Origin: an uncultured Bacteroidota bacterium
GTDB lineage: Bacteria > Bacteroidota > Bacteroidia > AKYH767-A > 2013-40CM-41-45
Assembly (NCBI GenBank): GCA_937871435.1
Contig: CALMQM010000020.1
Location: 1 to 46,781, forward strand
DNA length: 46,781 nt
Direction of reading: 5' to 3'
A program made the position numbers and the translations under genes. The notes beneath the pieces were generated by a model that worked only from the letters and a program-made list of their open reading frames with translations, was not told where the DNA came from and ran no database searches. Below, piece after piece: positions 2,058 through 6,624 of the stretch (positions are counted from its first letter, which is position 1; each line of letters starts with the position of its first letter).

Positions 2058-4121
2058 ATGCGTTTTATACACCCTGAATTTCTTTTTGCTCTTTTCGCTC
2101 TGGCGATTCCCATCATCATTCATCTTTTCAATTTCCGGAAATTCAAAAAAATCTTCTTTACCAATGTCCGCTTTCTCCGTGAAATTAAGCAAGATACCCA
2201 GTCCAAATCAAAATTAAAACACCTGCTCATTCTATTATCCAGACTCCTGGCTGTTGCTTTTTTGGTGCTGGCATTTGCTCAACCTTATATTCCTGCTGGC
2301 AATCAACAAAAAAGGAAGAGTACCCGTAAAATCAGCATTTTCATTGATAATTCCTTCAGTATGGATGCCGTCAGCAAAGAAGGTGCATTGCTGAAAGTTG
2401 CTCAGAAGAAAGCTCATGATATTGCAATGGCTTTTTCGCCGTCCGATCAATTTCAGTTGCTGACCAATGATTTTAAATCCACTCATCAACGATTGCTAAG
2501 CCGGGAAGAATTTTTGCTGGAAACAGACCAGGTTCAACAGGGTCCATCAGCAAAATCACTTTCAGAAATACTGACGCGTCAACACGATGCCCTCTTCACC
2601 GGAAACGCAGATGCTGAAAGCGATCACATTGTCTACATACTTTCAGATTTTCAAAAGAGTCAGATGAAACTGGAAAACCTGTCGACAGATTCGTCCATGA
2701 CCATCAATTTTATCCCGCTGCAAAGTGTACATCAGCAAAATCTTTATGTTGATACTTGCTTTCTGAATACTCCGTTTATTCAGCTCAATGCAAGCAATGA
2801 ATTAACTGTGAGAATAAAAAATAATGGTGAAGAAGCCATTGAAAATATCCCCTTGAAGCTTCTCATCAACGGTGAACAAAAATCACTCGCCAGTATTTCC
2901 TTAAATGGCAATTCAACTTCCGATGTAAAACTAAGTTTTACAGTTTCAAAACCGGGATGGCAAAAAGCGGAATTATCTATCACCGATTTCCCGGTAACTT
3001 TTGATGATACTTACTTTTTTTCGTTCAATGTGAGGCCCTCTGTTCAATTGCTTGCAATTAACGGAAAGACTGAAAGTCCTAACCTGAATGCTCTTTATCA
3101 AAGTGACCCTTATTTTATTTTAAAGAATGCAAATTCTGAGCAACTGGATTATTCTGCCTTCCGAAATTACCAGTTGATTCTGCTGAATGAGATATCAAAC
3201 CTCTCAAGCGGCCTGGTACAAGAGTTAAAAAGGTATGTGCAACAGGGAGGACAATTATTTATTATTCCCGCTCCCGATGCAAATCTCTCTACCTACAATG
3301 ACCTGATGACATCCATTGGTGGGCCGGATTATCTTCCTTTAAATACGATTGAGGAGAAGGTTAGTAAAATTGAAAATGATCACATTATTTTTAAGGATGT
3401 TTTTGAAAAAAAGAATAAGCTTCCTGAAAATCTGGATTTACCTCTCGTTCATTCCTATTATTCCTTTTCTAAAACGACTAAAAACAAGGAAGAACCCTTG
3501 ATGAAATTGCAGAATGGAAATACATTTTTGAGTACTGTTTCGTTCGGAAACGGCCAGGTGTATTTCTTAGCTGTTCCACTGGAAACTGAATTCAGCAACT
3601 TTGCAAGACATGCATTGTTTGTTCCGATTTTTATCAAATCAGCTCTCAATGGATCATCTGAGATTTCGTCACCGCTGATTATCGGAAAAAACAATGAAAT
3701 TTCTTACCGTGACAGTATTCTGCCAGGAGACAATGTTTTGCATTTGAAAAATGAAGCATTGAATTTTGATATTATCCCGGAAGTGAGAAAAATGGACAAC
3801 AGCATGATCCTATCTGTCCATGACCAGATATCTAATTCTGGAAGTTATCAGTTGTATGCCGACAAAACCCTTCTGTCGGAAATTTCATTTAATTTTGACA
3901 GAATTGAATCAGATCTCACTTGTTACACCACTGAAGAACTGGAAAAAACTATGAATGGCATCACTGGAATAAAATTTTCTGTCATTCAGGCTGAAGGAAA
4001 AGATCTTTCTCATACAATCAACCAATTGAACGAAGGAAAGCCATTGTGGAAAATCTGTATCACATTGGTACTACTCTTTCTGGCTGCTGAAATTCTTCTC
4101 ATTCGTTTCTTCCGTTCATGA
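2058..4121 (+). CDS. BatA-type membrane protein with VWA domain
   Basis: 687 residues. The N-terminus has the double-membrane-span BatA domain (about residues 6-26 and 56-77, with the RKFKKIFFTNVRFL link between them). A von Willebrand A-type domain begins near residue 92, and its metal-ion site DNSFS (97-101) is intact. A long periplasmic region follows, and a final membrane span lies at about 661-683 (ITLVLLFLAAEILLI). Related Bacteroidota proteins occur in aerotolerance (Bat) loci or stand alone; the exact role is unknown. The gene heads an apparent unit with the dihydroorotase homologue (18-base gap) and may be translated from a leaderless mRNA. Confidence 0.85.
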   Translation: MRFIHPEFLFALFALAIPIIIHLFNFRKFKKIFFTNVRFLREIKQDTQSKSKLKHLLILLSRLLAVAFLVLAFAQPYIPAGNQQKRKSTRKISIFIDNSFSMDAVSKEGALLKVAQKKAHDIAMAFSPSDQFQLLTNDFKSTHQRLLSREEFLLETDQVQQGPSAKSLSEILTRQHDALFTGNADAESDHIVYILSDFQKSQMKLENLSTDSSMTINFIPLQSVHQQNLYVDTCFLNTPFIQLNASNELTVRIKNNGEEAIENIPLKLLINGEQKSLASISLNGNSTSDVKLSFTVSKPGWQKAELSITDFPVTFDDTYFFSFNVRPSVQLLAINGKTESPNLNALYQSDPYFILKNANSEQLDYSAFRNYQLILLNEISNLSSGLVQELKRYVQQGGQLFIIPAPDANLSTYNDLMTSIGGPDYLPLNTIEEKVSKIENDHIIFKDVFEKKNKLPENLDLPLVHSYYSFSKTTKNKEEPLMKLQNGNTFLSTVSFGNGQVYFLAVPLETEFSNFARHALFVPIFIKSALNGSSEISSPLIIGKNNEISYRDSILPGDNVLHLKNEALNFDIIPEVRKMDNSMILSVHDQISNSGSYQLYADKTLLSEISFNFDRIESDLTCYTTEELEKTMNGITGIKFSVIQAEGKDLSHTINQLNEGKPLWKICITLVLLFLAAEILLIRFFRS

Positions 4122-4139
4122 ATTAAATACATCGTCATC

Positions 4140-5414
4140 ATGAAAATCCTTATCAAAGAAGTGACACTGATTAACACCGGAACAAATGAATCGGGAGCTG
4201 TGCGGGATGTACTCATTGACAATGGAATTATAAATAAAATTGCTCAGGCCGGTACTTTATCTGATCCATCAGCTACCACTATTGACGGGAAAAAGAAATT
4301 TCTGTCGCCCGGATGGTTTGATATGCATGTAAATTTCAGAGACCCTGGAGAAGAAATAAAAGAAGATTTAATGAGCGGTTGCGCGGCTGCAATGCAAGGT
4401 GGTTTTACCGGAGTTTTATGCATGCCGAGTACAACACCTCCAATTCATTCCAAAGCAGAAGTAGAATTTGTACTCAATAAAACCAAAAATGAACTTGTAG
4501 AGGTTCACGTCGCAGGGACTTTGTCACATGAACAAAAAGGAAAAGACCTGAGTGAGATGTATGATATGGCCTCTGCCGGAGCAATTGCTTTTACAGATGA
4601 CAAACATGCGGTACAGGATGCAGGATTGCTCACGAGGGCTTTATTGTATTCCAAAAATTTCGGTGGAAAAATTTTATCTTTTGCCGATGATAATTCTCTG
4701 TCATCAAAAGGACAAATGAATGAAGGAATTACAAGTACACATCTCGGCCTGAAAGGCATTCCGTCTCTTGCGGAATCGGTAATGATCAGCAGAGACCTGC
4801 AACTCGCAGAATATACAGGATCGCCCATTCATTTTTCTACAATCTCAACAAAAGAAAGTGTAGAACTTATCAGAAATGCAAAGAAGAAAGGCCTTGCAGT
4901 CACTGCTGATGTATGTGCATTGCATCTTTCACAGGATGATAGCGCACTTGAAAATTTTGACACATTACTCAAGATCAAACCACCACTCAGGAGCAGGGAA
5001 GATATTACTGCATTACATTCCGGTATTCTTGATGGAACCATCAGTGCAATTTCTTCTGATCATTCTCCAGAGGATACGGAAAACAAAGAAAAAGAATTTG
5101 ATTTAGCTGCCTTTGGAGCATCCGGATTAGAAACAACTTTTTCTCTTACCTATTCTTCTTTAATCAATAAATTAAAGATTGAAAAAATTGTCGATTTAAT
5201 AAGCAATAGTCCGCGTAGAATTTTAGGTTTAAAAGAAATCACCATCAAGGAGGGCGAGAATGCAAATCTCACATTATTTGACACTGAACAAGAATGGATA
5301 GTTGATGGATCTACACTAAAATCAAAATCAAAAAATAATCCATTTACAGGAAAAAAATTAAAAGGAAAAGCAATTGCTGTCATAAATAAGAATAAGTTTT
5401 TTCTTTGTTCCTAA
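4140..5414 (+). CDS. dihydroorotase homologue (PyrC-like), metal ligands lost
   Basis: 424 residues over the whole length of class I dihydroorotase, an amidohydrolase of pyrimidine synthesis. Conserved landmarks: DMHVNFRDPG (61-70), the GGFTGVLCMP stretch, GQMNEGITSTHLGLKGIP (191-208) and ISSDHSPED (catalytic Asp307 kept). Three zinc-ligand positions are changed: the second His of HxH is Asn65, the His of the usual HCED motif is Ser180, and the His of the usual CHVST motif is Thr234. It is therefore probably not an active hydrolase and may act like the PyrC' proteins that assemble with aspartate carbamoyltransferase. I believe this VNFxDPG form is common in Bacteroidota. Nine bases separate it from the phosphatase gene. 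Confidence 0.85.
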   Translation: MKILIKEVTLINTGTNESGAVRDVLIDNGIINKIAQAGTLSDPSATTIDGKKKFLSPGWFDMHVNFRDPGEEIKEDLMSGCAAAMQGGFTGVLCMPSTTPPIHSKAEVEFVLNKTKNELVEVHVAGTLSHEQKGKDLSEMYDMASAGAIAFTDDKHAVQDAGLLTRALLYSKNFGGKILSFADDNSLSSKGQMNEGITSTHLGLKGIPSLAESVMISRDLQLAEYTGSPIHFSTISTKESVELIRNAKKKGLAVTADVCALHLSQDDSALENFDTLLKIKPPLRSREDITALHSGILDGTISAISSDHSPEDTENKEKEFDLAAFGASGLETTFSLTYSSLINKLKIEKIVDLISNSPRRILGLKEITIKEGENANLTLFDTEQEWIVDGSTLKSKSKNNPFTGKKLKGKAIAVINKNKFFLCS

Positions 5415-5423
5415 ATTCCAGTT

Positions 5424-5885
5424 ATGAAAATTTTGATGGTATGCCTTGGAAATATTTGCAGATCACCAATGGCAGAAGGAATTCTCAGGAAAATGATCGA
5501 TGAGAAAAATCTATCAGTTCAGGTTGATTCCGCGGGCACAGGCAACTGGCACTCCGGAGAACGACCAGACAAGAGAGCCATTTCTACGGCAAAAAAATTT
5601 GGTGTTGATATTTCGAAATTGGTTGCCAGGCAAATTGAAGTTTCTGATTTTGAAAACTTCGATAAGATTTTCGTGATGGATAAATCCAATTACCGGACTG
5701 TTGTACAAATGGCGAGGTCCAAAGAAGATAGTTCAAAAGTTGAATTATTGATGAATCTCTGTTTTCCGGGAAGTGATACTGAAGTCCCGGATCCTTGGAG
5801 TGGCGATGAAGATGGATTTATTCCTGTTTTCAAAATGATGGAAAAGGCCTGCAGTAGTTTAATTGCATCCCTCAAAATATCATAA
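5424..5885 (+). CDS. low-molecular-weight protein-tyrosine phosphatase
   Basis: 153 residues, the usual length of the family. The P-loop CLGNICRS is at 7-14 with nucleophile Cys7 and Arg13, and the general acid is Asp123 in VPDPW. It hydrolyses phosphotyrosine (or similar phosphoesters) in the cytoplasm. ATG start nine bases after the dihydroorotase homologue, so probably the same transcript. In Bacteroidota this gene often stands beside an RsmI-like methyltransferase, as here. Whether it acts on capsule kinases is not shown; no such kinase is nearby. Confidence 0.92.
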   Translation: MKILMVCLGNICRSPMAEGILRKMIDEKNLSVQVDSAGTGNWHSGERPDKRAISTAKKFGVDISKLVARQIEVSDFENFDKIFVMDKSNYRTVVQMARSKEDSSKVELLMNLCFPGSDTEVPDPWSGDEDGFIPVFKMMEKACSSLIASLKIS

Positions 5886-5913
5886 GCTTGTTCAACTTAC
5901 TACGATAATTCAG

Positions 5914-6624
5914 ATGATGAAACCAGCAGGAACTCTGTATTTAATTCCTACATTTCTTTCAGAGGACAATGCAGATGTGCTTACAGCTTCCGGACTTAAA
6001 ATAGTTCATCAACTAAAGGAGTTCATTGTAGAAAATGAAAAAACTGCACGGAGATTTCTTAAATCCATTTCCAGTCCTTTTGCTCAGTCCGAATTTCAAT
6101 TTCAAACATTAAATGAACATACCTCAAAGGAAGAAATAAACAGCTTATTGCAGCCGTTGATAGAGGGTAGAAATATCGGACTGATGAGTGAAGCCGGAGC
6201 TCCCGGAGTAGCAGATCCCGGAAGCAATCTGGTCCAGCTTGCACACTCGAAAGGTATTCGTGTACATCCTTTGATCGGCCCTTCAAGTGTGCTATTGTCT
6301 TTGATGGCAAGTGGATTGAATGGGCAAAGTTTTTTATTTCATGGTTATTTACCGCGGGAAGCTTCACTCAGGAAACAAAAAATTAAAGAACTGGAAAAGG
6401 ATACATGGAAAAAAAACCAGACTCAAATTTTTATTGAAACACCTTATCGTAATCAGGCTTTGTTGGCAGACATTCTGGGTCAATGTACCGATGAAACTTT
6501 ATTATGCATTGCAGTTAATTTATCTTCGCCGACAGAATTAATAATGACTAAAAAAATTTCAGCCTGGAAAATAAAGTCTCCTGATCTGAATAAAAAACCT
6601 TGTATTTTTCTGTTAGGAAAATAA
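5914..6624 (+). CDS. RsmI-like SAM-dependent (tetrapyrrole-methylase fold) methyltransferase
   Basis: 236 residues from ATG 5914 (a second ATG follows at 5917; a TTG at 5863 overlapping the phosphatase is less likely). The N-terminus GTLYLIPTFL, the SEAGAPGVADPGSNLV loop, the GPSSVLLSLMASGLNGQSFLFHGYLP segment and the later IFIETPYRNQAL segment are those of the 16S rRNA 2'-O-cytidine methyltransferase family. It is shorter than true RsmI and is probably the Bacteroidota paralogue; the RNA target is unproven. It follows the phosphatase by 28 bases and ends the plus-strand unit. Confidence 0.85.
   Translation: MMKPAGTLYLIPTFLSEDNADVLTASGLKIVHQLKEFIVENEKTARRFLKSISSPFAQSEFQFQTLNEHTSKEEINSLLQPLIEGRNIGLMSEAGAPGVADPGSNLVQLAHSKGIRVHPLIGPSSVLLSLMASGLNGQSFLFHGYLPREASLRKQKIKELEKDTWKKNQTQIFIETPYRNQALLADILGQCTDETLLCIAVNLSSPTELIMTKKISAWKIKSPDLNKKPCIFLLGK

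Follow-up and report, generated by a model that had tools for sequence, protein, structure and literature searches.

A degenerate type I dihydroorotase conserved in Bacteroidia is a probable structural partner of aspartate carbamoyltransferase

The window, a stretch of 46,781 nucleotides from an uncultured Bacteroidota bacterium, carries a gene for a protein of 424 amino acids with the fold of type I dihydroorotases (DHOs), directly behind a gene for a BatA-domain protein. The initial annotation had placed the homologue at 4317-5066; this interval covers the ligand-bearing part, and the whole gene extends from 4140 to 5414. Both genes and the codons of the active-site positions discussed below are the following:

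2058..4121, + strand, gene for a BatA-domain protein, directly upstream (Pfam PF07584, 73 bits)
4140..5414, + strand, pseudo-dihydroorotase gene (pyrC'-like), 424 aa, type I DHO fold
4326..4328, + strand, His63, first His of the HxH motif and alpha-site ligand, retained (alignment, codon)
4332..4334, + strand, Asn65 in place of the second His of HxH, an alpha-site ligand (alignment, codon)
4428..4430, + strand, Ser97 in place of the conserved Asn of the CMPNT motif (alignment, codon)
4596..4598, + strand, Asp153, alpha-site ligand column, retained (alignment, codon)
4680..4682, + strand, Phe181 in place of the His of HCED, beta-site (alignment, codon)
4839..4841, + strand, Thr234 in place of the His of HVST, beta-site (alignment, codon)
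5058..5060, + strand, Asp307, equivalent of Aquifex Asp305, retained (alignment, codon)
5070..5072, + strand, Glu311 in place of the last His of DHAPH (alignment, codon)

Assignment to the type I DHO family follows from the score against the NCBIfam model TIGR00857 (363.9 bits, curated cut-off 279.05) and from the matching fold. The top relatives by sequence in the PDB are the DHO chains of Aquifex, with an E value of about 4e-81. An AlphaFold2 model built from 37 aligned sequences (pLDDT 94.1, pTM 0.93) is closest in fold to bacterial type I DHOs, in agreement with Foldseek, and superimposes on the Aquifex DHO structures 4bjh (Z 58.8, rmsd 1.8 over 419 residues) and 3d6n (Z 58.2, rmsd 1.7 over 419 residues). 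The Thermus DHO 2z00 follows at a short distance (Z 57.5). Since this DHO, which stands alone, matches about as well as the Aquifex DHO bound to aspartate carbamoyltransferase (ATCase), the fold match is silent on ATCase binding and was dropped as evidence for it. Two genes downstream, at 5424-5885 and 5863-6624, encode a low-molecular-weight phosphatase and a tetrapyrrole methylase-like protein. Each of them is found downstream in only 7 of 158 degenerate loci, and they are thus not conserved neighbours.

The ligand columns were read from alignments with the Aquifex DHO and with intact DHOs of Bacteroidota, and the codons were confirmed in the DNA of the window. The canonical ligands H, H, D, H, H and D correspond to His63, Asn65, Asp153, Phe181, Thr234 and Asp307, so that three of the six columns are changed in both alignments. 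The loss of three zinc ligands that the initial annotation had read from this protein is thereby borne out, as are Asn65, Thr234 and the retained Asp307; the residue aligned with the His of HCED is Phe181, however, and not Ser180, which aligns one residue earlier. Beyond the ligands, two conserved columns are replaced as well (Ser97 and Glu311) and Arg67 is retained. We take these three columns to be substrate-binding positions.

The alpha site of the Aquifex DHO is described as His61, His63 and Asp153, and a His180Ala/His232Ala double mutant of that enzyme is described as losing only about a fifth of its Vmax (PMC3880350). Phe181 and Thr234 alone are thus no proof of inactivity, because by this account the Aquifex enzyme works without its beta-site histidines. 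Inactivity is nevertheless likely in view of Asn65 together with Ser97 and Glu311. The earlier expectation that the protein is unlikely to hydrolyse dihydroorotate therefore stands by virtue of Asn65 and the further replacements; it would not have followed from the missing counterparts of His180 and His232 alone.

The degeneration extends through most of the class, for which the name Bacteroidia rests on named relatives. After removal of four duplicates the sample comprised 176 different type I DHO sequences, 159 from the class of the window and 17 from other classes of the phylum. Of the former, 158 are degenerate, that is, they keep at most four of the six ligands and have no gaps at the ligand columns. 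Because nearly every sampled sequence of the class is affected, the loss of the active site is neither chance nor sequencing error. All 37 type I DHOs from other classes (the 17 and 20 more) are intact; they represent 37 of the 172 genomes outside the class in which a match was obtained. The replacements are variable: in the 158 degenerate sequences the first His of HxH is most often Arg (38) or Gln (35), followed by His (20) and Lys (15), and at the second position Asn occurs 72 times and His 23 times. Among 80 named loci 68 are degenerate, including those of Mucilaginibacter, Chitinophaga, Sphingobacterium, Parapedobacter, Taibaiella and Cesiribacter, and 12 are intact, including Melioribacter and other Ignavibacteria, Kapabacteria, KSB1, Omnitrophota and Clostridia. 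One degenerate locus labelled Saccharospirillaceae (L301) perhaps represents a mis-binned contig. The sole intact copy of the class (L137 of genome G112) lies directly behind pyrB, in a genome without a match to the NF006688 model that is discussed below. Three pseudo-DHOs are extremely divergent (L442, L443 and L445 of G344, G388 and G317); they share 24-30% identity with the window protein and have lost the ligand motifs, but retain HPPLRS- and PRRWLGL-like stretches. No report of a pseudo-DHO in Bacteroidota was found among the matches listed in the open-licence PMC literature.

Despite the loss of the active site the gene is under purifying selection, as judged from its substitution pattern, and is not a relic. 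More than 75% identity is shared by 26 pairs, 25 of which were listed, 22 of them with a finite dS; in these 22 close pairs dN/dS ranges from 0.023 to 0.092, with the larger dS values saturated, and in the seven pairs with a dS under 1 it ranges from 0.026 to 0.080. When a non-redundant set of 198 degenerate sequences is set against 35 intact ones, the ancestral residue is retained on average in 31% at nine active-site columns chosen by hand, versus 83% at 54 other columns that are invariant in intact DHOs (one-sided p 7e-5). Columns 155 and 309, which lie beside active-site motifs, were lost even more than the nine. A single branch sets the degenerate copies apart with an SH-aLRT of 99 (44 versus 26 rows), and the same branch is recovered after removal of 35 active-site columns with an SH-aLRT of 96 (40 versus 26 rows), both in quick trees of hand-picked rows without bootstraps, the second of which omits four long-branched rows.

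A search of the own genome for a second pyrC and for pyrB, which the initial annotation had proposed, found both: a second DHO (L010) at C44:5959-7284 and a single pyrB on contig C90, apart from the pseudo-DHO gene on contig C20. The second DHO belongs to the family NF006688, members of which were found at E<=1e-120 in 142 of the 148 genomes surveyed in the class. Of 130 genomes with a degenerate DHO, 128 also have an NF006688 DHO, the two without a match being G303 and G351; at E<=1e-100 none of 38 genomes with an intact type I DHO gave a match. We presume that this clade is akin to the solved Porphyromonas protein 2gwn. L010 itself has Gln for the first His of HxH (DDQVHF), a motif that recurs in 38 of the 45 genomes used for the mirror-tree analysis below, three others having His at that position; the NF006688-type DHOs apparently work despite the altered first ligand. 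In genome G398 (C12:96097-100446, L374) pyrB lies about 2 kb from an NF006688 DHO.

The genomic relation of the type I DHO to pyrB differs with the state of its active site. In other classes, 8 of 20 loci have pyrB immediately in front of the intact DHO gene, and among the named loci PyrB is encoded within the locus in 9 of 12 intact versus none of 68 degenerate cases. Only one of the 158 degenerate loci contains PyrB at all, 2.9 kb off and on the opposite strand (G362; flanks were at least 1.4 kb in 145). Long frames around the DHOs of G113, G175 and G326 were considered as PyrB fusions but look like spurious overlaps, and there is no PyrB in these loci.

The presence of the regulatory chain PyrI was surveyed together with PyrB and DHO in 148 class genomes with a completeness of at least 95%. 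PyrI scored above the cut-off in seven of them, and the degenerate DHO is absent from all seven. A match in G069 (25.8 bits, below the cut-off, with five stops) was not counted. Type I DHO was found in 131 genomes at E<=1e-50, including the intact copy of G112, which left 17 absences. Thirteen of these were searched again with looser settings, the others (G278, G383, G385 and G403) being PyrI genomes, and very divergent copies turned up in G306, G317 (a partial frame of 208 aa), G344 and G388. The first scoring was therefore too strict, and 13 absences remain. PyrI is thus present in none of 135 genomes with a type I DHO versus 7 of 13 without (p 6e-9; 7e-8 with the first scoring), a p value computed on related genomes that are not independent. 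As the seven PyrI genomes come from three families, the exclusion represents few independent events.

The other six genomes without a type I DHO are G314, G342, G355, G052, G332 and G367. No pyrB was found in G314 and G342, and the PyrB of G355 falls into the PyrI-type clade, though PyrI was not found. G052, G332 and G367 have pyrB, the degenerate DHO was not found in them, and they are exceptions to the link with PyrB; the best match obtained in G367 was an intact DHO, closer to NF006688. Conversely, G393 and G301 keep a degenerate copy and pyrB was not detected. In a PyrB tree of 44 rows, in which 20 of the 22 sequences from genomes with a degenerate DHO were among the best-scoring matches, a PyrI-type clade (100/100) contains the PyrB of the seven PyrI genomes, that of G355 and the second copy from G396. 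The PyrB proteins of the 22 genomes lie on the opposite side of the tree, together with those of intact pyrB-DHO pairs, and four long-branched PyrB sequences (G052, G344, G306 and G332) are also on the DHO side. G396 has a degenerate DHO and two pyrB genes (C52:8232-9116 and C66:25848-26735) without PyrI; its copy in the PyrI-type clade may be a recent gain or contamination.

Taken together, the degenerate type I DHO has probably been retained as a structural subunit of PyrB in a complex resembling class A2 ATCases, and the best reading of the comparative data is that such a complex is widespread in Bacteroidia. The initial annotation had suggested a PyrC'-like partner of ATCase, and this idea gains comparative support from the exclusion of PyrI, the PyrB clade, the second DHO and the linkage of pyrB to intact DHO genes. 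We assume an ancestor in which the gene for an intact DHO was a neighbour of pyrB, an arrangement that many bacteria of other classes still have. In the lineage of Bacteroidia, a second DHO of the NF006688 type would have taken over catalysis, after which the old DHO may have lost its active site and yet was kept, presumably because PyrB needs it for assembly or stability. Physical binding to PyrB, a dodecameric arrangement, the need of PyrB for the degenerate subunit and the order of these events are what we infer from gene content and phylogeny.

The conserved gene order offers a different partner. The initial annotation had hinted at another role from the position of the gene, and the pseudo-DHO could serve the BatA-type protein of the preceding gene, for instance as an adaptor in the cytosol that takes part in envelope or stress physiology. 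The linkage is real: among 154 degenerate loci whose upstream flank spans 400 bases or more, 129 have a BatA-type gene ahead of the DHO gene and in the same orientation, versus none of 18 intact loci. The two genes are also side by side in G306. On a small plasmid of Rufibacter tibetensis (plasmid 2, NZ_CP012645.1, 12.5 kb) a degenerate copy that is annotated as dihydroorotase and lacks HxH (GWFDLSAFTGEPG; L351) follows a BatA-like gene and precedes DUF4199 and glycosyltransferase genes, so that the gene pair is present on a plasmid. A mirror-tree analysis did not single out PyrB: in 45 genomes the distances of the degenerate DHO gave a partial r of 0.43 with those of PyrB when the second DHO was controlled for, and of 0.47 with those of the second DHO when PyrB was controlled for, and with BatA included (41 genomes) the values were 0.27 for PyrB, 0.34 for the second DHO and 0.52 for BatA. 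The distances thus track all three proteins, BatA most, and a role for BatA stays among the alternatives because this analysis does not favour PyrB.

The gene-loss pattern, however, points away from it. In 40 chosen genomes searched with the BatA protein of the window, five keep BatA but have no DHO-type PyrB (G355, G385, G405, G314 and G342), and the degenerate DHO is gone from all five. No BatA match was found in G042, G047 and G052, all with a PyrB on the DHO side (placed in the tree for G047, judged from the score alone for G042), and the first two of these keep the degenerate DHO. G052 is the exception, as it has no degenerate DHO and its PyrB is very divergent with a very long branch. 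G052 apart, the pattern favours PyrB over BatA as the partner, and a role for BatA would also leave the exclusion of PyrI and the link to the PyrB type unexplained. BatA is probably a conserved neighbour and not a functional partner, and we consider service to BatA unlikely as the reason for retention. That the subunit additionally links pyrimidine synthesis to the BatA-type protein, so that ATCase stability would answer to the state of the envelope, is a speculative extension which we regard as rather improbable.

The dead pocket might instead act as a sensor of a nucleotide or of carbamoyl aspartate and regulate PyrB or another enzyme. Such a role would fit the occurrence of the degenerate DHO where PyrI is absent, and some pocket residues are indeed retained (Asp153 in 89% and His308 in 99%). 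But the pocket residues vary between lineages, and nucleotide inhibition in Pseudomonas is interpreted, in the discussion cited here, as lost stability of the complex and not as allostery (PMC7053772), which makes a sensor quite improbable. Residual catalysis, with metal held by His63, Asn65 and Asp153 and with dihydroorotate or another cyclic amide as substrate, is very unlikely: the window protein does retain His63, Asp153, Asp307 and Arg67, and the beta-site histidines appear dispensable in Aquifex (PMC3880350), but the alpha-site histidines vary throughout the class (the first kept in 20 and the second in 23 of 158) while the gene is under purifying selection, the equivalents of Asn97 and His311 are lost, and a second DHO exists alongside. 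That the gene is a functionless relic in decay, as the degenerate active site and the very divergent forms in G306, G344 and G388 might suggest, is hardly tenable given dN/dS values of 0.02-0.09, mostly full-length open frames and the 83% retention at other invariant columns.

The gene is present in about nine tenths of the 148 sampled class genomes and matches models that carry the name dihydroorotase. Its product is very probably not a dihydroorotase, and the label would mislead metabolic models and lists of drug targets. If PyrB is held together by the degenerate DHO, a pseudoenzyme would serve as a subunit in a central pathway of a large bacterial class. Across the phylum one seems to see the successive steps, from an intact DHO beside pyrB through a second enzyme and the loss of the active site to retention, and absence where PyrI occurs, which would make the origin of pseudoenzyme subunits testable.

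In Pseudomonas, pyrB and pyrC' are adjacent. Like the class A2 ATCase of these bacteria, the own genome of the window combines a DHO homologue without zinc ligands with another DHO, and has PyrB without a match to PyrI. In contrast to Pseudomonas, the gene is here unlinked to pyrB and usually lies behind a BatA-type gene (adjacency is no strict feature of class A2), the gene is widespread in a class, its replacements vary between lineages, and the complex is a proposed one. For Pseudomonas aeruginosa it is described that the inactive DHO is necessary for ATCase activity and that the catalytic chain alone is monomeric (PMC7053772). A pseudo-DHO domain in CAD-like proteins of fungi is likewise described as lacking zinc ligands and being kept with ATCase; this domain is part of one long chain, whereas the window protein is encoded by a separate gene (PMC7053772). 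Closest in sequence and fold is the DHO of the class A1 ATCase-DHO complex of Aquifex aeolicus (3d6n, 4bjh). That DHO is described as active within the complex (PMC3880350), whereas in the window protein one alpha-site His and two further active-site residues are replaced in addition to the beta-site histidines.
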